A DNA stretch of 47,166 bases, from positions 1 through 47,166 of the IMG/VR virus record IMGVR_UViG_3300037069_001345; one strand, 5' to 3'. Below, one piece after another: positions 119 to 47,166 of the stretch. Every line of letters begins with the position of its first letter. Within the stretch, counting starts at the first letter, position 1. The stretch is from a virus. Position numbers and translations under genes: made by a program. Below the pieces are notes generated by a model. The model saw nothing but the letters and a program-made list of their open reading frames with translations, did not search any database and was not told the DNA's origin.

Positions 119-846
119 CACGAGACGAGTTCGACGTGCCAGGGACTGCCCCGGATTTGGCGTCTGTGTGGAGGGAGTACCAGCGGCTGACCGGGTTGCC
201 GATCACACTCACGGTGGCGGATGCTCCGATCCCCCGGTCTGTGGCGTACCAGCAGGACAAACTGCAGGCCTGCTACGACTTGGCAACAGTCCTTGATGCT
301 GTCGCATATGTGACACCGGATGGTACAGCTTCTATGCGCCCGGTTGCGTGGCCTGCCGTGGTGGATGTTTTGAAGACGGCTGACCTTGGCCCTGACGACC
401 CGAACCGAGCTGTCGCCGGCACTCTGATTGATGTGATCCCGCGGCTGTCGAACGCGGACGTGTATAACGCGGTCGTGGTGCGTGGCACTGACCCGACCGG
501 TAAGACGATTGTGCTTGCGACGGCGGAGGTGCTGGACGGGCCGTTGCGTGTTCGGAACACGGACGGGTCGTTATCCCCTTACCGGAGGGTGCCGTACTAC
601 TACTCGTCGCAGTACATCACGACTGTGGCGCAGGCTCAGGCGTATGCGACGACCTTGTTGGCGCGGGTTTCCCGGTTGCGGTCATTGACCTATGACCTTG
701 TGGAGACGTTCAACCCGCTCCGTGAGGTTGGGGATGTGCTGAAGGTCTACCGGCTCGGGCAGTCGTTCACTTGCCGAATCACGAACATCAAGCGCGCCGG
801 GACAGGCGAGCAAACACTGACCGTCTCCCTCGATCCGTTGCTTTAG
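1..846 (+). CDS. Minor tail protein (DUF5047-like), C-terminal part, partial at 5' end
   Basis: This is the 3' part of a gene that begins at 46737; joined across the contig ends it would encode about 384 residues. The frame is open from base 1 and ends in TAG just before 848. The protein resembles the DUF5047-type tail proteins that follow the distal tail protein in actinobacteriophages, probably part of the baseplate hub. Its place after tape measure and Dit-like genes supports this. Residues show no obvious catalytic motif. The next gene follows after 12 bases with a GGAGG ribosome site between. Family name is from general resemblance; the tail role is firm. Confidence 0.8.
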   Translation, partial: TYLLTDDPSIRTSRFRFNGAIVAHGDMIVLTLQDLFAGVARDEFDVPGTAPDLASVWREYQRLTGLPITLTVADAPIPRSVAYQQDKLQACYDLATVLDAVAYVTPDGTASMRPVAWPAVVDVLKTADLGPDDPNRAVAGTLIDVIPRLSNADVYNAVVVRGTDPTGKTIVLATAEVLDGPLRVRNTDGSLSPYRRVPYYYSSQYITTVAQAQAYATTLLARVSRLRSLTYDLVETFNPLREVGDVLKVYRLGQSFTCRITNIKRAGTGEQTLTVSLDPLL

Positions 847-858
847 TGGAGGTTCCCG

Positions 859-1746
859 GTGGCTGATATGAGCGCCTTCAATGCTGCTTTGCAGGCGGCG
901 ATAGCCAAGGTGGGGCCTGGGGTTCGCATCATTCAAGCCACGTTCATGGCCGGGTCGGACGGAAGCGGATGCCTGATCGACATTCAAGGTTCCCGCATCC
1001 CCGCCCTGTTGGGCACAACGTTCCTTCCCGAGGTTGGGGAGAACGTGTGGGTGTGGGTCATCAACGACATGTATTTCATCATGGGTTCCACGGCGGTGAA
1101 ACCGGATCAGGGCACGGTCGTATCGGCTAGCGGCGGCCTCGCCACTCTTACCACATCGGTGGGGACAACCATTGCGGCCCCGTATGTCGGCGCCGCCCCC
1201 TCCGCAGGTCAGGTGATGAAACTGCTGTGGCATAACGGCCCTTTCGCCATGCTCATGTCCACCAGTCCCGCCCCCGCACCACCACCCCCACCGCCTCCCT
1301 CGGGGGCCACAACTCACACCCATTACTTCGCCGCAATCGACGCAGGCTCGTACGGGTCTAGGTGGTGGACTGACCAAGTATGGGCGTCCGACAACAACTT
1401 GGGCGCATGGTTCTACGGTTCAAAAATCAGTGACACCATTCCCGCGGCTGCTGCTATCTCGTCGGTGCAAATCTATATTTCGCCGCAGCAGATCAGTGGG
1501 TCCGCACCGAACTTTGCTCTTCACCCGTATCAGGTGAAACCGGGCGGGTCGCCGTCGTATTCGCTTGTCACGGCTATCGGTGTCGGCGGGGGCGGCTGGC
1601 TGAACTTGCCCACATCGTTCGGCAACGGTTTGAAAGCTGGCGGCGGTTCCGCCGGCGTCGGTGTTGATCATGGCGGGTACAACATTTTCAACTCGTTGGC
1701 CGCTGATGGCCAGTCCGGTGCGCTCAGCATCGTCTCCATCTACTAA
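859..1746 (+). CDS. Minor tail protein with proline-rich linker
   Basis: 295 residues from a GTG, with GGAGG at 848-852 placing the start. The N-terminal ~110 residues look like a small beta-rich (OB-like) tail domain, followed by a linker around residues 138-148 that is almost pure proline, then a Gly/Ser/Trp-rich C-terminal domain typical of surface-exposed tail tips. Position between the DUF5047-like protein and the next fibre-like gene points to a baseplate or receptor-contact role. The exact function is not recognisable from sequence. Confidence 0.7.
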   Translation: MADMSAFNAALQAAIAKVGPGVRIIQATFMAGSDGSGCLIDIQGSRIPALLGTTFLPEVGENVWVWVINDMYFIMGSTAVKPDQGTVVSASGGLATLTTSVGTTIAAPYVGAAPSAGQVMKLLWHNGPFAMLMSTSPAPAPPPPPPPSGATTHTHYFAAIDAGSYGSRWWTDQVWASDNNLGAWFYGSKISDTIPAAAAISSVQIYISPQQISGSAPNFALHPYQVKPGGSPSYSLVTAIGVGGGGWLNLPTSFGNGLKAGGGSAGVGVDHGGYNIFNSLAADGQSGALSIVSIY

Positions 1747-6586: not shown

Positions 6587-6891
6587 TCATTTATGTGACG
6601 AACTCAGGGGAGAAAGAGTACGTCGGCGGCACGCTCACAGAGCTGACCGGGAAGGATATCACCGCGGCGAATTTTGCTGTGGCGTTGGGCCTGTCCGATA
6701 CCATCCCGCCGACCAGCGCCGGTGTAACCCCATCGGTGAATGTGCAGGGTCCGACTGTCGCGGATCGGCTGCTGAAACTGCTGGTCGATAACACCGTCTC
6801 CCCGGGAACGTATTTCATTTGGGGGAAAGTTGTCGATACCCCCGAGTCCCGCTGGATACTGTTGGACGGCGAGCCGATCATTGTAGTGTGA
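6583..6891 (+). CDS. Last gene of the rightward tail/lysis unit, unknown
   Basis: 102 residues; ATG overlaps the fibre stop and AGGAG lies 6 bases upstream. The protein starts MIIYVTNSGEKEYVGG, is mixed alpha/beta, and contains DxTPESRWILLDGEPI near the end. It resembles short proteins that accompany fibre genes, so a structural or fibre-assembly role is likely. The transcript ends at the strong hairpin at 6894. Confidence 0.6.
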   Translation: MIIYVTNSGEKEYVGGTLTELTGKDITAANFAVALGLSDTIPPTSAGVTPSVNVQGPTVADRLLKLLVDNTVSPGTYFIWGKVVDTPESRWILLDGEPIIVV

Positions 6892-6893
6892 AG

Positions 6894-6945
6894 AAGCCCC
6901 CCGCTGAAGGATGCCCGAATCCTTCAGCGGGGGGCTTCTTTTTTT
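6894..6945 (+). terminator. Strong intrinsic terminator ending the late operon
   Basis: A perfect 19-bp stem (6894-6912 with 6919-6937), 6-base loop, then seven T at 6939-6945. It separates rightward late genes from the leftward lysogeny genes. The opposite strand has only a weak T tract. Confidence 0.97.
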
Positions 6946-6953
6946 GTTGGGGA

Positions 6954-7298
6954 CTACCCAGCCTTGTACTCCGTGTAAGACTTCACCGGTTCCACAACGA
7001 CACGTCGGCGCAGAGCCGCGACGATCATAAACGCCACCAACAGCAGGGCACCCAACGCGAGCACCCCGATACCCCACCCGATCAACGTCTGATCCGCACT
7101 CATCGCAGGTGAGGTGGACGTGTCAAGGTTGACGCCGTTGTCTAAGAAGAGTGCGTGCTCAAAGGCGGCGGACGACTGGTCGTAGTTGAGTTGGTTTGAT
7201 CCGGCCGACCAGAGGATGGGTCCGAGGATTACTGCGATCAGACCGACGATGAGCAACGCGACGGCTGCCGGGTTGCGGAAGATCGAATTCTCGTTCAT
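6954..7298 (-). CDS. Two-helix membrane protein of the lysogeny module
   Basis: 114 residues with transmembrane helices at about 11-30 and 72-95, a ~40-residue outside loop and a basic C-terminal tail (LRRRV). The ATG overlaps the integrase stop (ATGA). It also has its own promoter-like signal: TACCAT 6 nt upstream of the ATG with an operator-like palindrome behind it. Membrane proteins in this position of temperate phages often act in superinfection exclusion or prophage fitness; that role is inference only. Confidence 0.75.
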   Translation of the reverse strand: MNENSIFRNPAAVALLIVGLIAVILGPILWSAGSNQLNYDQSSAAFEHALFLDNGVNLDTSTSPAMSADQTLIGWGIGVLALGALLLVAFMIVAALRRRVVVEPVKSYTEYKAG

Positions 7299-8473
7299 GT
7301 TTCGATGGTAAACCCATACGGGGTGCTAGCGCTATCAGTGTCAGCACTGACTTGGCGCATCACCTTCTGCAGGGAGTCCGCCATGCGTGTGTGTGCGTCG
7401 GGCAGGAGGTGACCGTACACGTTCACTGTCGTCTGAATGGACTCGTGCCCCAGGCGGGCACGGATGAACGCCAACGGCACACCATCTGCGATCAACCAGG
7501 ATGCGCCGGTGTGCCGCAAGTCGTGGATTCTTGGGCGTTGGCTGATCCCGGATTTGCGTACGGCGACGACCCATGCTTTGTAGAAGGTGCGGGCCGGGAT
7601 TCTGCCGCCGTCGGGGTTGTGGAACACGTAGCCTGTCCCGGGGGTTCCGAGCTGGGCGACCAGTTCGGGCCAGAGCGCGACGGTGCGGCGTGACTTCCGT
7701 GACTTAGGCGGCCCGATGACTTCGGGGCCGTGCGGGTTTCGTTTCCACGCTTTCGACACCCGCACTGTGGGCGGGATGGTGTCGGTGTTGATATCGGACC
7801 ATTCGAGGGCGGCAGCTTCGGACCATCGCAGTTGTGAGCCGATGAGGAACGCGGCTAGTGGTTTCCATTTGTCGGGGAGGGCGTCGGTGACACGACGGAA
7901 TTCTTCGAGCGACAGGAACACGGGTTCGTTGGGGACACCGCGGGACAGGCTGGCGCCGCGGGCCGGGTTGTCGGGGCGTAGCCCGTTCTTCATGGCGGCG
8001 CCGAGGATGGCGGAGAGGATACCGTGACGGTTCTTCACGGTTTTCGCTGCGACCGGTTTGCCGGTGCGGTGGTGGGGTTGTGCTTCTTGCCAGGCCACCC
8101 ATTTGCCGACGGTGGCTTGGTCGATTGCGTCTATCGGGTAGTCCCCGAGCACCGGGTACAGGTAGTTTTCTGCGACCCGGTGGTATTCGTCTCGGGTGCC
8201 GGGTTCTACGCCTGTGAGGAGGCCGCTGGCGGCGTCTAAGTATCGTTCGGTCCACTCGCGGAAGGTGGGGGTGTCGTGTACGACACTACCTCGGAGGATT
8301 TCTCTGGCCCGGTCGCCGCCGTATGATTCGACTTGCTTTTTGAATCTGAGGGCTTGGGCGCGGGTGGGGAACGTTTCTTGCCGGCTGGCCCATTTGTGTC
8401 CTTTTTTGGTGCGCCATTGGACGCGGAACACTTCGGTCCCGGACGGGTTGATGAACGGCTTGAGGCTAGCCAC
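7295..8473 (-). CDS. int: Tyrosine integrase
   Basis: 392 residues from a GTG that lies behind GGAAGGAGA; the longer frame to 8533 overlaps the upstream gene and has no ribosome site. An arm-binding type N-terminus (residues ~10-60) precedes a SAM-like core-binding domain (~70-165) and the catalytic domain. Catalytic residues are visible: R216, H317-x-x-R320, H343 and Y353. Length is usual for the family. It catalyses site-specific integration and excision. The upstream coiled-coil gene ends 4 bases before the start, so both share a promoter. Confidence 0.95.
   Translation of the reverse strand: MASLKPFINPSGTEVFRVQWRTKKGHKWASRQETFPTRAQALRFKKQVESYGGDRAREILRGSVVHDTPTFREWTERYLDAASGLLTGVEPGTRDEYHRVAENYLYPVLGDYPIDAIDQATVGKWVAWQEAQPHHRTGKPVAAKTVKNRHGILSAILGAAMKNGLRPDNPARGASLSRGVPNEPVFLSLEEFRRVTDALPDKWKPLAAFLIGSQLRWSEAAALEWSDINTDTIPPTVRVSKAWKRNPHGPEVIGPPKSRKSRRTVALWPELVAQLGTPGTGYVFHNPDGGRIPARTFYKAWVVAVRKSGISQRPRIHDLRHTGASWLIADGVPLAFIRARLGHESIQTTVNVYGHLLPDAHTRMADSLQKVMRQVSADTDSASTPYGFTIET
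7305..7324 (-). promoter_or_regulatory. Leaderless promoter with operator for the membrane protein gene
   Basis: On the reverse strand a -10 box TACCAT (7310-7305) ends 6 nt before the ATG at 7298. Directly upstream is the palindrome AACCCATACGGGGT (7311-7324), a variant of the phage operator. No good -35 box is seen. The site lies inside the integrase 3' end. Confidence 0.55.
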
Positions 8474-8477
8474 GGGG

Positions 8478-8936
8478 TCAGTCGTCTCCTTCCGGTACCA
8501 CAGTCCACGGACCCACCAAACGCTGCACAGCATTGAAAACGAAGTGCCCGCCAGGTCGAGGGATAACGGAGTCCGGGTAAATGGTCCCGTCTTTGATGAA
8601 CTCCGGCAGAGTCGCCCGCTCGACGGTCATCGCGTCCAGGCGGGCTTGCAACGCGTCACGCTGCTCTTTCCGACGGTCCGCGGATTCACGCATCAGCTTG
8701 TATGCAGTCCGCAGCTTCTCGTTCTCGGCTTGCAGAGCATCACGCTCAGCCTCGGTGTCAAGACGCGCCTCAGTGAACTCCACCAGCCGATCCATGTCGG
8801 CCTCATGGGCCGCCAGCAGAGCCTCAACAGCATCGAGAAGGTCGCCCGGAAGGTGCGACGAGCGACACACGCACCAGCCCTCATCGAACAGGGCACGGAC
8901 CTCCTCGATCAACGCCTTGTAGTCGGGGGATGTCAT
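8478..8936 (-). CDS. Coiled-coil protein, paralogue of the gene at 22757
   Basis: 152 residues from the ATG at 8936. Residues about 45-115 are a long charged coiled coil; the C-terminus RLVGPWTVVPEGDD and the segment ALQARLDAMTVE are shared almost exactly with the protein encoded at 22757-23269. The start sits 7 nt after a TATGCT box, so the mRNA may be nearly leaderless. The gene is translated just ahead of integrase and its last codons contain the integrase ribosome site. No known function. Confidence 0.75.
   Translation of the reverse strand: MTSPDYKALIEEVRALFDEGWCVCRSSHLPGDLLDAVEALLAAHEADMDRLVEFTEARLDTEAERDALQAENEKLRTAYKLMRESADRRKEQRDALQARLDAMTVERATLPEFIKDGTIYPDSVIPRPGGHFVFNAVQRLVGPWTVVPEGDD
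8485..8522 (-). repeat. 38-bp inverted repeat, left copy
   Basis: Exact reverse complement of 23225-23262. It encodes the shared C-terminal tail of two paralogues and the ribosome site of the next gene. A second shared block, 8620-8650, is the exact inverse of 23085-23115. Confidence 0.95.
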
Positions 8937-8943
8937 ACCCCCA

Positions 8944-8973
8944 AGCATACACCCATATGGGTAACCGTGTCGG
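8944..8973 (-). promoter_or_regulatory. Leftward lysogeny promoter with operator
   Basis: Reverse strand: -35 CCGACA (8973-8968), 18-bp spacer, -10 TATGCT (8949-8944). The perfect palindrome ACCCATATGGGT (8951-8962) fills the spacer. It would drive the coiled-coil gene and integrase and be blocked by the phage repressor. Confidence 0.65.
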
Positions 8974-9027
8974 CATATTTTGTCGGTATATCCGGGCGAC
9001 ACCCCCCAGTTCCCAGCGTTTATCTGT

Positions 9028-9051
9028 AGGGCGGACGGGACTTGAACCCGT
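9028..9051 (-). other. attP: tRNA 3'-end mimic, candidate attP core
   Basis: On the reverse strand there is a complete T arm, ACGGG-TTCAAGT-CCCGT, followed by CCGCCCT as in a tRNA acceptor 3' strand. The 5' half of a tRNA is absent. Tyrosine integrases commonly use a tRNA 3' end as core, and int lies 550 bp away. The host tRNA cannot be named from here. Confidence 0.5.
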
Positions 9052-9071
9052 AGACCCATATGGGGTAGACA
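9042..9071 (+). promoter_or_regulatory. Rightward promoter with operator over the att-like core
   Basis: TTGAAC (9042-9047), 18-bp spacer, TAGACA (9066-9071). The operator-like ACCCATATGGGGT (9054-9066) occupies the spacer. The -35 box is part of the T-arm mimic. It could drive the small gene at 9300. Confidence 0.45.
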
Positions 9072-9127
9072 CCCCGAATCCCTTGTAAACACTGGGCGCA
9101 GACAATTTTGTTGGAGCGGACGAGGCT

Positions 9128-9145
9128 CCCCATATGGACCATAAT
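9128..9145 (+). promoter_or_regulatory. Operator-like site next to a -10-like box
   Basis: CCCCATATGG (9128-9137) shares the operator core, with CATAAT at 9140-9145 resembling a -10 box. No matching -35 box is visible at 17-18 bp. Confidence 0.4.
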
Positions 9146-9299
9146 GGACAGGTGTGGACATATATTTGTAGGGATGCCGACACGTCCACCCACCCCCTAA
9201 AAAGGGGGGGTTGAGGAAGTATACCTTTCGGCGTAGGTCCGCTAGGGTAGGCAGAAACCGTTGCAGGGGCGCAACGGCGCTAGGGGAAGAAGCCCACCC

Positions 9300-9482
9300 G
9301 TGAACAAATCCGTAGACGACATGACCGCCGGCGAAATTCGCTCAGCCTGCTTGAGGCTCGGCATGGACCCGTACAAGACGTTAGAGCTTGTACTCACCGG
9401 ACACAAAGATTCGGTCAATCTCTCGCCATGCGTCGGGGAAGCTAACCCCCAACACTTCAAAGATCAGCCGAAGGTCGCTTGA
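9300..9482 (+). CDS. Small unknown protein overlapping the repressor gene antisense
   Basis: 60 residues from GTG at 9300, with AGGGGAAGAAG upstream. The protein has DDMTAGEIRSACLRLGMDPYKTL, which reads like a short helical domain. Its last 102 bases are antisense to the repressor 3' end. It could be a Cro- or antirepressor-like product, but there is no homology I recognise and the reading frame may be incidental. Confidence 0.45.
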   Translation: MNKSVDDMTAGEIRSACLRLGMDPYKTLELVLTGHKDSVNLSPCVGEANPQHFKDQPKVA

Positions 9483-9641
9483 CTTTGGGGCGCGCTCGCC
9501 GCGCCAATAACGACGGAAGGTGTTGACGGGGATGCCAGCGCGTCCTGCCGTCTCTTCCTGTCCCATATGCTTTTCATCTGCCACGGCGCGGATGTACGCG
9601 GCGACCGCTAGGTCAAAGTCTGATTCTGGTCGAGATGCCAC
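9381..9641 (-). CDS. HTH repressor (Cro/C1-type), likely immunity repressor
   Basis: 86 residues from GTG. Residues about 24-65 form a helix-turn-helix: MGQEETAGRAGIPVNTFRRYW, with the turn at AGI and a recognition helix NTFRRYWRG. There is no dimerisation or cleavage domain, so it is a minimal repressor. The GTG lies 7 nt after a TACCCT box and an operator variant lies immediately upstream, suggesting autoregulation from a leaderless mRNA. It is divergent from the early promoter. Role as immunity repressor follows from position. Confidence 0.75.
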   Translation of the reverse strand: MASRPESDFDLAVAAYIRAVADEKHMGQEETAGRAGIPVNTFRRYWRGERAPKSSDLRLIFEVLGVSFPDAWREIDRIFVSGEYKL

Positions 9642-9648
9642 ATTTCAG

Positions 9649-9667
9649 AGGGTATCCCATTCGGGGT
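9649..9667 (-). promoter_or_regulatory. Repressor promoter with operator
   Basis: Reverse strand -10 TACCCT (9654-9649), 7 nt before the GTG. The operator ATCCCATTCGGGGT (9654-9667) abuts it. No convincing -35 box. Confidence 0.5.
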
Positions 9668-9776
9668 GACCATAAGTCGCATTGACTCGAAGTTTGTAGT
9701 AACCGAGTCGGTTTTGTTTCGCTTTCTTCTCCGCCCTTGTAGAGGTACGCAGAATACAGAAATGTCTGTCTGTCCG

Positions 9777-9806
9777 TTGACACCTACCCATTCGGGTAGG
9801 TAAGCT
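9777..9806 (+). promoter_or_regulatory. Rightward early promoter with operator
   Basis: TTGACA (9777-9782), 18-bp spacer, TAAGCT (9801-9806). The spacer is the inverted repeat CCTACCC-ATTC-GGGTAGG (9783-9800). This is the best promoter in the window and is positioned to start the whole early operon, with repressor binding blocking polymerase. Confidence 0.8.
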
Positions 9807-9812
9807 AGCAAC

Positions 9813-9854
9813 ATGCAGCACAACGAAGCATACCGCGCAAGGGGCTTGACGTGA
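9813..9854 (+). CDS. 13-codon leaderless leader peptide
   Basis: ATG at 9813 lies 6 nt after the TAAGCT box, so the transcript probably begins at or next to it. The frame encodes MQHNEAYRARGLT and its TGA overlaps the GTG of the next gene (GTGA). This would couple translation of the excisionase-like gene to a leaderless start. Confidence 0.45.
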   Translation: MQHNEAYRARGLT

Positions 9855-10069
9855 TCCGCGAACCCTGGGTTGACACCCTGGCCGTCGCGGATCATTTCGG
9901 CAAGTCCGTGTTCACCGTTCGTCGGTGGGCGCAGGCCGGTGAGATTCCTGGGGTGAAGAAAGGGCGGAGCTGGCTGTTTCAGCTCTCCGCGATCGACGCT
10001 CACATGGGATCCACCCCGCCTCCTTCTGCGCAGTCTGCCCGTTCGAGGGGCCGGCGCAGAGCCGCCTGA
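9851..10069 (+). CDS. Putative excisionase / HTH DNA-binding protein
   Basis: 72 residues from GTG. Residues about 7-50 form a MerR-like winged HTH of the excisionase type: TLAVADHFGKSVFTVRRWAQ, then GEIPGVKKGRSWLF. The basic C-terminus (SRGRRRAA) would help bind DNA. As first gene after the early promoter, next to the integrase module, it may direct excision or act as a Cro-like switch. Which of the two is unresolved. Confidence 0.75.
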   Translation: MIREPWVDTLAVADHFGKSVFTVRRWAQAGEIPGVKKGRSWLFQLSAIDAHMGSTPPPSAQSARSRGRRRAA

Positions 10070-10086
10070 TTCTCTCTGACATTCGT

Positions 10087-10112
10087 CCGCCTCATGTAGG
10101 CGGTGTTTGTTG
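10087..10112 (+). terminator. Weak terminator after the excisionase gene
   Basis: CCGCCT (10087-10092) pairs with AGGCGG (10098-10103) around a 5-base loop, followed by TGTTTGTTG. It could reduce early read-through. The T-rich tail overlaps the next promoter's -35 box. Confidence 0.45.
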
Positions 10113-10135
10113 CGCCCAAAACTGAAAACTATAGC
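10107..10135 (+). promoter_or_regulatory. Second early promoter
   Basis: TTGTTG (10107-10112), 17-bp spacer, TATAGC (10130-10135). It would re-initiate transcription ahead of the 10403 gene. No operator palindrome is present here. Confidence 0.5.
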
Positions 10136-10402
10136 TACCGGACGACGCCAAACGCCTATGCGCCGGGATGCACATACACAGTGGCAGATACGGGCACCTG
10201 AAGACGGTGCTGCGACTTCACCTGGGGGTGGAGGGGAACTGCACCGACCACAAAGGCGTGGCCGGGTTTGAAGGATAGGTCCGAGGGAGCGTGTTGGCGG
10301 GTAGAGGTCGTGCCCCATCGCTGAAGGATCGGCTGCCCACTATTGGCTCATTACGGTGCCGGGATCGTACCCCGGGGGCAGCACGGAAAGGAGGGAGACC
10401 CA
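10136..10402 (+). other. Long leader, mostly without a gene
   Basis: About 265 bases between promoter and the next clear start. A 36-codon frame at 10168-10278 (starting MHIHSGRYGHLK) has no clear ribosome site and is uncertain. The rest is GC-rich with short dyads and may be an untranslated leader or small RNA. Confidence 0.4.
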
Positions 10403-11134
10403 ATGGCTATCTACCTAGACTCCTCCGCTAACCGGAACATCAACCGCATACTCGGGTCCGCCATAAACAAAGTGGCTCCGGAAATCTACCTACAGTCGCA
10501 GGTACGCAGCATGAGCGCCGAGCAGTTGCAGGACATTGCTCTTACGTACTTAGTGGAGCGACTGAAAGACCGCAAGCGGGCACGAGTGCTCGTAATCGAA
10601 AGAGACGCCCAACGCGGCGGTGTCGTGTCCGCCCGGGTTGACGCACCGGGCAAGCGCGTCATCATCGACATCCCCAAGGCCGAGATTGAGCGCCGCGACA
10701 ACAGCGAGACCGCCGCCCCAGATTCGGCCACAATTCACAAGATCCGTGAGGATCAGCAGGCACGCATTGATGCCGACTCGGCCGCGCGGTGGGAAGCGAT
10801 CAGGGCACAAATGGCTGACGCCATGGACGCACTTCGGGAAAGCTGGCATGTCGAGTGGACGCGCGAATTGTTGGACGCCGAGTTCGCTGTTGGCGACGGG
10901 ACAACGACGACCTGGGGCAACGCCACGCGCGAGCAGCACATGGCGCGACTCGCGCTGCACGAGCGCAATGCTGCGGCAGGCATTGAAGGCGCATTGCGAC
11001 ACCGGGAAGCACTGGACGTTTTGGACTCGTCGGGTGCCTTGTGCTTGAACGAAGCTCGGCGCGTTGGTGCAAACCCACAAACCCGGGGCGGTGAGCGGCC
11101 AGATACGGAAGCCCTCGCCGTCCTGCTGGACTAA
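10403..11134 (+). CDS. Unknown early protein, 243 residues
   Basis: ATG at 10403 stands behind GGAAAGGAGGG, which decides the start over a longer frame. The protein is largely helical and charged: an N-terminal NRNINRILGSAINKVAPEIY, a central Lys/Arg-rich part around 65-110 and long amphipathic helices to the end. No catalytic motif or known family is evident. It opens a run of small early genes whose neighbours are mostly unknown or nucleic-acid related. Confidence 0.75.
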   Translation: MAIYLDSSANRNINRILGSAINKVAPEIYLQSQVRSMSAEQLQDIALTYLVERLKDRKRARVLVIERDAQRGGVVSARVDAPGKRVIIDIPKAEIERRDNSETAAPDSATIHKIREDQQARIDADSAARWEAIRAQMADAMDALRESWHVEWTRELLDAEFAVGDGTTTTWGNATREQHMARLALHERNAAAGIEGALRHREALDVLDSSGALCLNEARRVGANPQTRGGERPDTEALAVLLD

Positions 11135-25264: not shown

Positions 25265-25338
25265 GTCTGCGTAGCTCAATTGGTTAGAGCGGCGGTCTCC
25301 AAAACCGCAGGTTGCAGGTTCGAGTCCTGCCGCATTCG
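25265..25338 (+). tRNA. tRNA-Trp (CCA) with two acceptor mismatches
   Basis: A full cloverleaf: D stem GCTC/GAGC, anticodon stem GCGGT/ACCGC with loop CTCCAAA (anticodon CCA), T arm GCAGG-TTCGAGT-CCTGC, discriminator G. The acceptor stem GTCTGCG/CGCATTC has T-T and C-T mismatches at pairs 2 and 3. CCA is not encoded. Confidence 0.88.
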
Positions 25339-25452
25339 CTAATGGTTTATTAGGTTCGGATAAACCTTCCTAAACCTTCTAAACGGTTCTAAAACAACTC
25401 TTTGACGCCACCCCCCTCGGTGACGCCTCCCCATATAAGTTGGAGGCCCGAA

Positions 25453-28603: not shown

Positions 28604-29494
28604 TCAGGCGTTGCGCCATTCGCCGTCGTCCAGCAGGCTCTTGACGGCTTTGGAAATGTTCTGTGCGGCTTGCTTCACAGTCTCCTTGTCTTTACCCTGC
28701 CAGCCGGCCACATAGCGGGCATTCGCTCCCCCAACCTCGGCGCTCATCCCGTTAGCTCGGAGCAAGACATAGCTGATACTGTCGGCTTCGACTTCCATTT
28801 GCCGGCGCTGCCCTCCGTGGCCAGTGTGGTACTCTTCTGCGCGCTCGATGTGGCCGGCTGCGATGTGCCCTAGCTCATGCGCTAGCACGCGTGCACGGGA
28901 TCCGTCGTTCAGGCCCTCCCTCACCACAACTCGCTTGCTGTCGTCGGTAGTGGTGTAACCCTCCCGGCCTCCGCTCATGGCCTCGTAGCTGACACTGAAG
29001 CCGCGGGCCATGATCGCCCCGATTAGGTCATCTATCAGCCCTTCCGGTGCATCCTCGGTAATGGTTTGCCCATCGGTCGGAATGTCTGCGCCGTCGGTCT
29101 GGGCGATATCGAAAACACTGACTGTGGTGTAACCGATCACGCGATACTTCGGCTTGCTCTCGTCGCGCTCCTCGTCAGGGACTTTCGCTGTACGCGGCGC
29201 GAGGATCGAAATGCCGTGTTCACCCTTCCGAACGTGGCGCCCCATTTCTTCCCATTTCCGGTAGCCGGCAACGCGTGTAGCGTCGGGCCGCTGGATAAGG
29301 ATCAGAAGTTGGTTCGACAGGCTGTAGTGGTGGAACTTGGCAACGAATGACAGATAGGCTAACCAATCTTCGTCATTGTCCATTGACTCGACTTTGCGGT
29401 CGAGTTCTTCCATGTACGCTTTCACTTTGTCCGCCGGCGTGGCGTAACGCGTGGTGAAAGTGTCGGGGGTCTGGGTCATGGTGTCTGTGCTCAT
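28604..29494 (-). CDS. ardC: ArdC-like antirestriction protein with metallopeptidase domain
   Basis: 296 residues. N-terminal ArdC/DUF1738-type ssDNA-binding region (~20-130) with KFHHYSLSNQLLILIQRP, GYRKWEEMGRHVRKGEHGI and ILAPR; C-terminal zincin domain with AHELGHIAAGH (HExxH at 206-210) and a downstream E-x-x-AD (EVEADSISY) for the third zinc ligand. ArdC proteins protect incoming DNA from host restriction. The ATG is 6 nt after TACACT, so the mRNA is probably leaderless and made early. Confidence 0.88.
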   Translation of the reverse strand: MSTDTMTQTPDTFTTRYATPADKVKAYMEELDRKVESMDNDEDWLAYLSFVAKFHHYSLSNQLLILIQRPDATRVAGYRKWEEMGRHVRKGEHGISILAPRTAKVPDEERDESKPKYRVIGYTTVSVFDIAQTDGADIPTDGQTITEDAPEGLIDDLIGAIMARGFSVSYEAMSGGREGYTTTDDSKRVVVREGLNDGSRARVLAHELGHIAAGHIERAEEYHTGHGGQRRQMEVEADSISYVLLRANGMSAEVGGANARYVAGWQGKDKETVKQAAQNISKAVKSLLDDGEWRNA

Positions 29495-30851: not shown

Positions 30852-31061
30852 TTAGTTGAGTGCGCAACGCGCGTGCTCTTGAGGGTGAATACTGATAATG
30901 CAGGCATGCGGTGCAATCGGCCCGTACAGGGTAAACATGGGCGCATGCTCCGAATCGTGGGCGTGGTCGGAGGCGATTGCTAACCCTCCGACAAATCCCA
31001 TTAGGGCGATGGCTATACCGGCGAACGCTAGGCCACCTTTAGCGGATGCTGAATCGGACAT
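30852..31061 (-). CDS. Small membrane protein, 69 residues
   Basis: ATG directly after the preceding stop (TAAATG). One hydrophobic helix at about 10-30 (LAFAGIAIALMGFVGGLAIA), then a His-rich C-terminal part with HDSEHAP and HACIISIHPQEH. Probably inserted in the membrane with the His-rich tail outside; function unknown. Confidence 0.65.
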   Translation of the reverse strand: MSDSASAKGGLAFAGIAIALMGFVGGLAIASDHAHDSEHAPMFTLYGPIAPHACIISIHPQEHARCALN

Positions 31062-32710: not shown

Positions 32711-32786
32711 AGCGGGGCAGGCAGTAGTGGTGCTGCGACGGTCTCATAAGCCGATACCGGTGTGGGTTCGACTCCCATCCCCGCAA
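32711..32786 (+). tRNA. tRNA-Met-like (CAT), initiator-type acceptor
   Basis: Acceptor GCGGGG/CCCCGC with an unpaired A1:A72 and A73, as in bacterial initiator tRNA (unpaired 1:72); D stem GCAG/CTGC; loop CTCATAA with anticodon CAT at 32745-32747; T arm with TTCGACT. The anticodon stem lacks the three G-C pairs of initiators and has one A-A mismatch, and three rather than two bases join acceptor and D stem. No CCA encoded. Confidence 0.65.
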
Positions 32787-32812
32787 CGTCTTTTTAGCTC
32801 CGGGGGGACACT

Positions 32813-34300
32813 ATGGTTTCGTTTGATGCGGCGACGGATCCGGGGGCGTTTGCTGAGCAGGTGTTGGGGCAGCCGTTGTGGCCGTATCAGTTGGAGTTTG
32901 CGCGGTCGAAGGCTCGGTACCGGTTTGTGTGTGCTGGCCGGCAGGTGGGTAAGTCTACGGCTTTGGCGACGATTGCCCTGTTTGAGGCGGCGACTCGGGC
33001 GAACATTTTGGTGTTGGTGGTGTCTGCTGGTGAGGATGCGGCGAAGCGTGTTTTGGCGGATTGTGTGGGGTTTGCGTCGCATTCTGCGATTTTGTCGAGT
33101 TCGACGGTGGATGAGGGTAAGAGTCTGCTGTCGTTGATCAATGGTTCGCGGATTGTTAGTGTGCCGGCGTCGATTAAGCAGATTCGTGGTAATCCGGTGG
33201 ATTTGCTGATCTTGGATGAGGCTGCGTTTATATCGAATGAGATATGGGAGTCTGCGGAGCCGTCAATTTTGGCGCGACCCGGTTCCCGGGTGATTGCTAC
33301 GTCTTCGCCGTGGGGGTCGATGGAGCATTGGTTTCGTCGTGGCTGGAATTTGGGTAAGGATTCCCGTGACGCCTGGTATGAGTCGTGGCAGTGGAGGTCG
33401 TCGGATTCGCCGTTGGCGGATGCGGAGCTGTTGCAGCGGATTCAGGCTGCGAACGGTGACGACTATTTCAACCGTGAGTACAACGGTGAGTTCCAGGACG
33501 ATTCGGGGTCGTATTTCACTGAGCGTGAGCTTGAGAGTGCGGTTGCCGATTATTCGATGACGGCGCCGGAGGATTTGGACTGGTTTTTGGATGGCCGGTA
33601 TCCGGCTGCGGGCGGCGTTGACTGGGGTTTGAATGACGCGAACGTGCTTGCGTTGGTGTCGCCGTTGGAGGATTACGGGCTGAATCGGAAGATTTTGGGC
33701 GACCATATCCCCTTCTTCATCCCGTGGTATATCAGTGGTCACAAGTGGCCGTATAGCCAGTTCATTGATGAGATTGTTCGCACGGCAGGGTTTTATCACA
33801 TGCCGGTGATTGCGGCTGAGACGAACGGTGTCGGCCAGTATCCGACGACGATGCTGGATGAGAAGATCCGGTTGAAGCATAAAGTGTCGGCGGTGGCGCC
33901 GGTGAACACGGATGCGAAACGTAAACAGTCCGGGTTTGGCATGATCAAGGGTTTGTTGCAGACGCAACGGCTGGTGTTGCCGCGTGACCCGGAAATGTTG
34001 AAGCAGCTGCGCAGTCTTGAAGTGTCGTATACGGCGCAGGGGACGATGCAGATTCGTGTGCCGGAGCGTGCAGGGCATGACGATGTGGCGATGGCGTTGA
34101 TGCAGGCGGTTTCTGCGGTGGCGCCTGAGCGTGCGGTTCGTCCGCCGGCCGGGTTTGGTCAGGTTGTGCCGGTTCCTGCCGATTTGGAGTTGGTGGAGAC
34201 GAAGAGTGGCTTGGTGGTGCCGGCGGTGCCGCGGCCTATGTCGTTTATGCGGCATGTGTTTTCTTATCCGCGCGGTTCGGAATCCGGCGAAGGCTGGTGA
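32813..34300 (+). CDS. terL: Terminase large subunit
   Basis: 495 residues. Walker A AGRQVGKST (41-49), Walker B LLILDEA (D135, E136), coupling motif ATSSPWG, then the RNase H-like nuclease with GVDWG (D270), AETNGVG (E336) and HDDVAMAL (D423/D424). It powers DNA packaging and cuts concatemers. Length is normal. Start ATG behind GGGGGGAC. Its last 37 bases overlap the convergent reverse gene. Confidence 0.95.
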   Translation: MVSFDAATDPGAFAEQVLGQPLWPYQLEFARSKARYRFVCAGRQVGKSTALATIALFEAATRANILVLVVSAGEDAAKRVLADCVGFASHSAILSSSTVDEGKSLLSLINGSRIVSVPASIKQIRGNPVDLLILDEAAFISNEIWESAEPSILARPGSRVIATSSPWGSMEHWFRRGWNLGKDSRDAWYESWQWRSSDSPLADAELLQRIQAANGDDYFNREYNGEFQDDSGSYFTERELESAVADYSMTAPEDLDWFLDGRYPAAGGVDWGLNDANVLALVSPLEDYGLNRKILGDHIPFFIPWYISGHKWPYSQFIDEIVRTAGFYHMPVIAAETNGVGQYPTTMLDEKIRLKHKVSAVAPVNTDAKRKQSGFGMIKGLLQTQRLVLPRDPEMLKQLRSLEVSYTAQGTMQIRVPERAGHDDVAMALMQAVSAVAPERAVRPPAGFGQVVPVPADLELVETKSGLVVPAVPRPMSFMRHVFSYPRGSESGEGW

Positions 34301-34641
34301 CCGGTGTTCAACTCGTTGAGGGAACGCCAGAGGTCGCCGATCAACACTTTGATCGGTTTCCCCTGCTGCTTGTAGTCAACATCTGTGGGGTTGTCGTAGT
34401 CCCACCACTCCTTACCATCGTACTCGGCACGCCACATGTGCCGGCCGTCCGAAAAGCGAACGATCAGGTCCGTGGCGACTTCGGCGGCTCCGTATCCGTC
34501 ATCGTATTCGCGGTCAGCCAGTTCCTCGAATTCTGCCCACGTGCACGAGTACTCGCCGTCCTCTGACCCGATGAAAGTCACTTGGTCCACAGTGTGGCCC
34601 GAGCGGCGAATGTCCTCACGCGTTTCGCTTAGCAGATTCAT
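34264..34641 (-). CDS. Reverse-strand moron gene, 125 residues
   Basis: Lone leftward gene between terminase and portal, overlapping the terminase end. The protein is acidic and mixed alpha/beta: ETREDIRRSGHTVDQVTFIG, CTWAEFEELADREYDDGYG, VRFSDGRHMWRAEYDGKEWW. ATG at 34641 lies 6 nt after TAGAAT, so leaderless, behind a perfect operator palindrome. A prophage-expressed accessory protein is the best reading; function unknown. Confidence 0.7.
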   Translation of the reverse strand: MNLLSETREDIRRSGHTVDQVTFIGSEDGEYSCTWAEFEELADREYDDGYGAAEVATDLIVRFSDGRHMWRAEYDGKEWWDYDNPTDVDYKQQGKPIKVLIGDLWRSLNELNTGHQPSPDSEPRG

Positions 34642-34647
34642 GTTCCG

Positions 34648-34669
34648 ATTCTACCACCCCATATGGGGT
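34648..34669 (-). promoter_or_regulatory. Leaderless moron promoter with perfect operator
   Basis: Reverse strand -10 TAGAAT (34653-34648); the 14-bp perfect palindrome ACCCCATATGGGGT (34656-34669) lies in the spacer position. The -35 region (GTCGCG) is poor. Confidence 0.7.
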
Positions 34670-46736: not shown

Positions 46737-47166
46737 ATGAGGTTCGGAAGCCCGGCACTCAAAGGTGCACTGACGGGGGCGTTCAACAAACGGTATGTCG
46801 CGGACGTTCTGTTCAACGGCACTCGTGTGATGAAAGACGTTCCGATCATCGACCCCACTTTCACCGATGCGGGTACGTCGAAGGTGCAGTTTACCGGGTC
46901 GTGCACACTCGTATATCAGGGGAAGTTTGCTGAGTCTGTGGCGCCCTCTGCGATCAACGACGTGCTGGCACCGTTCGGTACACAGGTTGTCATTTCGGTG
47001 CTGACCGATGTAGGCCCCGGCCTGTCCGAGCGCACCCTGTTGGGCACATACTTGCTCACCGACGACCCGAGTATCCGCACTTCCCGGTTCCGGTTCAACG
47101 GTGCGATTGTGGCGCACGGCGACATGATCGTCTTGACATTGCAGGATCTGTTCGCAGGTGTCGTTT
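46737..47166 (+). CDS. Minor tail protein (DUF5047-like), N-terminal part, partial at 3' end
   Basis: ATG behind GAGGGGG. Begins MRFGSPALKGALTGAFNKRY and continues DVLFNGTRVMKDVPIIDPTF; open to the window end. The same frame goes on at base 1 after the 118-base overlap. The last three bases (47164-47166) disagree with the left end. Confidence 0.85.
   Translation, partial: MRFGSPALKGALTGAFNKRYVADVLFNGTRVMKDVPIIDPTFTDAGTSKVQFTGSCTLVYQGKFAESVAPSAINDVLAPFGTQVVISVLTDVGPGLSERTLLGTYLLTDDPSIRTSRFRFNGAIVAHGDMIVLTLQDLFAGVV
47046..47163. repeat. Terminal direct repeat, right copy (contig closure)
   Basis: Identical to 1-118. The final TTT does not match the left copy and looks like an assembly edge. 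Confidence 0.95.

Follow-up and report, generated by a model that had tools for sequence, protein, structure and literature searches.

The window analysed here is the whole of IMG/VR record IMGVR_UViG_3300037069_001345, 47,166 bp in length. Its first 118 positions are identical to 47046–47163, with 3 mismatched bases following at the extreme end. This terminal overlap indicates that the genome is probably essentially complete and circularly closed, at ∼47.05 kb. Virion genes run from 32.8 kb through the end of the window and onward to 6.9 kb. Beyond this block lie the leftward int operon (8936–6954), attP, a leftward repressor gene, and a rightward leader/xis unit followed by early genes (Table 1). 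A terminator hairpin at 6892–6939, with a 20-bp stem and a T run, closes the virion block beside the end of the int operon. The repressor gene is a small HTH gene, divergent from the early lytic/xis unit. For the 114-aa membrane-protein gene at the end of the int operon, family searches gave no match. Elsewhere, 28604–29494 (minus strand) encodes an ArdC-like antirestriction protein with an IrrE/M78-type metallopeptidase domain. A small ORF (9300–9482, plus strand, ∼60 aa, GTG start) is convergent with the repressor gene and overlaps its 3' end. It has a counterpart (785–979, minus strand; 32% identity, E 3e-9) in a related phage, IMGVR_UViG_3300013306_000028, hereafter L128, which was found via its 58%-identical integrase. 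The convergent ORF is a possible antirepressor or antisense-coupled gene.

Table 1. Genes, attP and candidate operators of the window
Feature	Coordinates	Strand	Sequence	Remarks
Putative membrane protein, 114 aa	6954..7298	-		Start overlaps int stop
Tyrosine integrase (int)	7295..8533	-
Candidate operator	7311..7324	-	AACCCATACGGGGT	Inside int 3' end; putative promoter of membrane-protein gene
152-aa coiled-coil-like protein	8478..8936	-		First gene of int operon
Candidate operator	8951..8962	-	ACCCATATGGGT	Putative promoter of int operon
attP core	9020..9051	-		tRNA-Met (CAT) 3' end of Microbacteriaceae; 23 bp / 32 bp matches
Candidate operator	9054..9066	.	ACCCATATGGGGT	2 bp from attP core
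Candidate operator, weaker	9128..9137	+	CCCCATATGG	Before 20-codon ORF
HTH_3/HTH_31 repressor, 86 aa	9381..9641	-		Family match; predicted five-helix HTH
Candidate operator	9654..9667	-	ATCCCATTCGGGGT	Putative promoter of repressor gene
Candidate operator	9783..9800	+	CCTACCCATTCGGGTAGG	Putative leader/xis promoter
Leader ORF	9813..9854	+	MQHNEAYRARGLT	Stop overlaps xis start; from sequence
Excisionase/AlpA-like HTH protein (xis)	9851..10069	+		Pfam HTH_17, Exc; 59% identical to L128 xis
Moron-like gene, 125 aa	34264..34641	-		phrog_3972; between terminase and portal
Candidate operator	34656..34669	-	ACCCCATATGGGGT	Putative promoter of moron-like gene

A preliminary description of this DNA had reported seven near-palindromes at the positions listed in Table 1, and each was found at exactly those coordinates. 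Their expected excess over simulated sequence was also borne out: the window contains 8 matches to CCCATNNGGG or its complement, versus a mean of 1.7 in order-3 Markov simulations of the window (n = 500; P(≥8) = 0.002). Five of these matches fall within 2.6 kb, and the largest cluster in any of the 500 simulations contained three. Matches at 30997 and 42331 were rejected as operators; they lie in apparently coding DNA, lack start-codon anatomy, and are about as many as chance predicts. In a cruder, motif-blind test, a raw count of all 1,024 ten-base palindromes with one mismatch allowed, the family did not stand out. GC-rich palindromes are common, so such a count is indecisive, and the persuasive evidence lies in the position and conservation of the sites rather than in their number.

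With regard to position, five sites (7311, 8951, 9654, 9783 and 34656) share a common arrangement: the palindrome, 1–4 nt, a TANNNT box, 6–7 nt, and an ATG or GTG. With so little room between box and start codon, the mRNAs would be leaderless. At 9783, TTGACA (9777–9782, 6/6) is followed by an 18-nt spacer that the operator fills exactly, then by TAAGCT (9801–9806) and ATG at 9813. At 8951, CCGACA (4/6) and a spacer of 18 precede TATGCT (8944–8949), 7 nt, and ATG at 8936. The remaining three have TACCCT (9649–9654), 7 nt and GTG at 9641; TACCAT (7305–7310), 6 nt and ATG at 7298; and TAGAAT (34648–34653), 6 nt and ATG at 34641. The 9128 site is alike but weaker, with CATAAT (9140–9145) 6 nt before GTG 9152 of the 20-codon ORF. 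Five of nine candidate sites have the full arrangement. It is missing from both chance matches in coding DNA (30997, 42331) and is seen at only ∼0.05–0.15% of background positions per strand; the rule was framed after the sites had been inspected, yet the gap to background is very large. Four of the sites had been described as lying between –35-like and –10 boxes, with the rest abutting a –10. The –10 side of that claim holds at five sites, but a recognizable –35 is present only at 9783, where it is good, and in part at 8951. A consensus sigma-70 scan of 6880–10420 matched none of these promoters, and we therefore dropped the idea that they are strong. Because three of the five lack a recognizable –35, their promoter activity is uncertain.

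The attP core sits between the int operon and the repressor gene. A 23-bp segment of it (9029–9051) is common to at least 120 Microbacteriaceae stretches, and the best match among those listed, at locus L056, extends over 32 bp. Since the core corresponds to the 3' end of a Microbacteriaceae tRNA-Met, the host probably belongs to that family. The phage itself encodes tRNA-Met(CAT) and tRNA-Trp, at 32711–32787 and 25265–25339, respectively, and the former has the same anticodon as the tRNA targeted by attP. We considered whether the 9054 palindrome is part of the host tRNA, and ruled this out; the host tRNA-Met differs upstream of the core, and the site is phage sequence. Lying 2 bp from the core, it makes an unconvincing promoter operator, and could instead regulate integrase access or act as a storage or looping site. 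In L128, attP has a different tRNA-like core, and an operator likewise adjoins it.

The obvious candidate ligand of the family is the 86-aa HTH protein, which we infer binds these sites. Its AlphaFold model is a confident five-helix HTH (pLDDT 88.8), with ClgR, C.Esp1396I and C.BclI as the nearest solved folds (for C.Esp1396I/C.BclI, PDB 3g5g, 3ufd and 2b5a: TM ∼0.75–0.87, sequence identity ∼20%). The preliminary description had stressed that the protein has no dimerization domain. C-protein controllers dimerize without a separate domain, however, and the predicted fold, a full five-helix HTH, has two of them (C.Esp1396I and C.BclI) among its closest solved structures, so this absence is not meaningful. 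Fold and palindromic sites alike would fit a protein that acts as a dimer. That one small repressor controls both lytic and lysogenic promoters is in keeping with the occurrence of a single operator family at the repressor and xis promoters, a pairing also found in L128. The proposed regulon is broader than this, though, with further sites at the int operon, the membrane-protein gene, and the reverse-strand gene at 34.6 kb. Sequence relatives of the repressor were seen neither in the phage collection nor in the genome-contig scan, and among viral contigs only in L128.

The L128 repressor is 51% identical over 84 residues and has a similar HTH segment (IPVNTFRRYW / IPFGTFRRYW). L128 carries TGTCCCACATGGGACA-type operators of its own, in a matching layout at the repressor and xis promoters and beside attP, and a direct-repeat search of L128 to which no motif was supplied returned families with the core TCCCACATGGGA. 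Its repressor promoter reads TTGACG-16-TATGTT, 6 nt, ATG, with the operator CCCGTATGGG in the spacer and a leaderless start as in the window. Its leader promoter reads TTGACA-19-TACTGA, again with an operator in the spacer, and the leader begins MEHNEA at the position equivalent to MQHNEA in the window. Of the seven window sites, six came within the eight best window matches of a matrix built from the L128 sites only (34656, 9054, 8951 and 7311 as the top four, 9128 sixth and 9654 eighth), and the three best window scores of this matrix exceeded all of 200 simulations. The sites and their anatomy are observed in the window, and the layout of repressor, operators and promoters is kept in L128. 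The int branch is not conserved, as no operator was found by eye at the L128 int operon. L128 also has a second HTH-like protein (1180–1521), with an operator-like site at 1107 just upstream; no such gene was seen in the immunity region of the window. Remote CCAYRTGG matches in L128 (15.7, 28.3 and 41.1 kb) were discarded, since those inspected lie within apparent coding frames. Apart from L128, a scan based on xis recovered only a bacterial locus that resembles a prophage and has a single CCATGTGG ahead of its xis gene.

The most distant site precedes the phrog_3972 gene, relatives of which occur in Lactococcus, Streptococcus and Bifidobacterium phages. Its operator is the only perfect 14-bp copy of the palindrome. 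Two related phages, L123 and L124, lack the gene between terminase and portal. In a second contig (L122/L136), identical over 6.65 kb, both the gene and its operator are present. The simplest reading is that the gene is a moron under control of the immunity repressor. A single-copy moron amid virion genes would thus carry the phage's own putative immunity operator.

Taken together, these observations point to a real operator family, very probably that of the 86-aa repressor, with a proposed regulon of five putatively leaderless promoters, a probable sixth, and the attP-proximal site. In the model we favor, the repressor would bind each 12–14 bp palindrome, most likely as a dimer, with ACCCAT as the half-site. 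When bound to operators that end 1–4 nt before the –10 box, it would obstruct RNA polymerase. Its targets would be the leader/xis unit (early lytic), its own gene (autoregulation), the int operon, and the genes at 6954–7298 and 34264–34641. In a lysogen, all five promoters would be held down; upon infection, they would fire together until repressor accumulates. Repression and the regulatory logic of the five promoters are what we infer from the DNA sequence.

Some of the sites might have no function. It is unlikely, in our view, that only those in the immunity region are functional, with 7311 and/or 34656 being chance matches or relics. About 1.7 matches of the CCCATNNGGG type are indeed expected by chance, and in L128 no site beyond the immunity region is convincing, those inspected being in apparent coding frames. 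Yet 34656 is a perfect 14-bp palindrome, the –10/leaderless-start anatomy is complete at both 7311 and 34656, and the gene at 34264–34641 is an insertion that has this promoter and is missing from that position in L123/L124. It is very improbable that the palindromes act on elongation instead, as stoperators or as attenuator or terminator hairpins. A perfect 14-bp palindrome is able to form a short hairpin, and in Cluster A mycobacteriophages dispersed repressor sites do serve as stoperators (PMC9283540, PMC6550527). But the sites described here directly precede –10-like boxes and start codons rather than lying at gene ends in one orientation. They are also symmetric, unlike the asymmetric stoperators, and no T run follows them. 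On the strength of this symmetry and position, we reject both the stoperator and the terminator readings.

Alternatively, the palindromes could be bound by a protein other than the 86-aa repressor, either the AlpA/Xis-like product of 9851–10069 or a host regulator, which we regard as improbable. Several operators are indeed close to xis, int and attP, a region in which Xis could act, and TACCC-GGGTA at 9783 has what we take to be a superficial resemblance to the operators of actinobacterial copper regulators (CsoR). However, the usual targets of Xis proteins are direct repeats close to att, and one of the sites is 25 kb away, before a moron. None of the downstream genes examined appears to be a copper gene, which argues against a CsoR-type regulator. 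Moreover, CCATnTGG occurs at the starts of repressor-related HTH genes in Microbacteriaceae, pointing to the repressor itself as the ligand.

The repressor shares with C.Esp1396I and C.BclI, which bind symmetric operators as dimers and autoregulate, a predicted ∼80-aa five-helix HTH fold. It differs from them in being only ∼20% identical in sequence, in having no linked restriction system, and in showing no sign of activator function. The closest known system is that of mycobacteriophage BPs, whose working principle is alike, though we claim no membership. BPs gp33(103) is a 103-aa HTH immunity repressor with 12-bp palindromes (CGACATATGTCG) at five dispersed loci (PMC4557955). Four BPs promoters, including PR, are repressed; the early-promoter operator lies between –10 and –35, and a second operator lies by rep (PMC4557955). 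Both systems thus have a ∼100-aa HTH repressor, 12-bp palindromes with the same central CATATG, operators at several dispersed intergenic loci, an early-promoter operator between –35 and –10, and another operator by the repressor gene. Against gp33 of Hope, a cluster relative of BPs, the window repressor gave no BLASTP match and a negative profile score. The BPs sites are paired half-sites with 5–8 bp spacing, bound by a probable tetramer, and its attP lies inside the repressor gene, making immunity integration-dependent (PMC4557955). In the window, by contrast, the palindromes are single, attP lies between int and rep, and the promoters look leaderless. The Cluster A/L5 system resembles that of the window in having one repressor and sites dispersed over an actinobacteriophage genome. 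Its stoperators, however, are asymmetric 13–14 bp elements in 18–30 copies, oriented and monomer-bound (PMC9283540, PMC4557955), whereas the window sites are few, symmetric, and promoter-proximal at gene starts.

We also looked at Microbacteriaceae HTH genes more widely, using a profile (A2) built from ten small HTH proteins, of which two are the phage repressors and the other eight are Microbacteriaceae proteins picked because CCATnTGG-type sites lie near their starts. Across 30 Microbacteriaceae loci, the density of CCATnTGG near HTH starts (–160 to +30 of the HTH domain start) is 4.2/kb, versus 0.11/kb elsewhere, a difference of ∼40-fold. For the 18 loci outside the profile, the values are 2.3/kb and 0.056/kb, with a site in five loci and none in the other 13. 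The wider pattern N4-CATNYG-N4, examined beyond the window and L128 in an independent set fixed in advance, showed modest enrichment and gave 8 sites in 7 of 28 loci (∼4-fold; P ∼0.001–0.002), in a set where control cores were also enriched near starts, some of them several-fold. Hence the strict CCATnTGG core is well supported as a putative operator element in part of this repressor group, and the broad CATNYG core with complementary flanks is only suggestive. Operator-like palindromes with a CCAT..CGG core and other flanks, TATCCATACGGATA and TATCCAAACGGATA, sit between divergent HTH genes of two other IMG/VR prophages (L208 and L209, respectively). Among the papers listed in a literature search on CCATATGG and phage repressors, none deals with such an operator, to judge by title and abstract.

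The system is ordinary in principle; its anatomy and the operator rule it suggests are informative. A complete regulon can be proposed for a phage without an annotated repressor relative in the searched phage collection. Operators of small actinobacterial phage repressors are rarely known, and these sites suggest a simple core-plus-flank rule. Tentatively, a large family of ∼80–120 aa HTH repressors found in phages and integrated elements of Microbacteriaceae may share an operator grammar built on a CCAT(N)(T/C)GG core, a generalization about which we have some doubt. The core would then perhaps be invariant (in its broadest form CATNYG, which the unrelated BPs operator also has), and the 3–4 variable flanking bases per side might be what sets immunity specificity. 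If this grammar is true, operators would be readable and immunity groups predictable from sequence alone, and morons could join a regulon by bringing such an operator with them, as at 34656.
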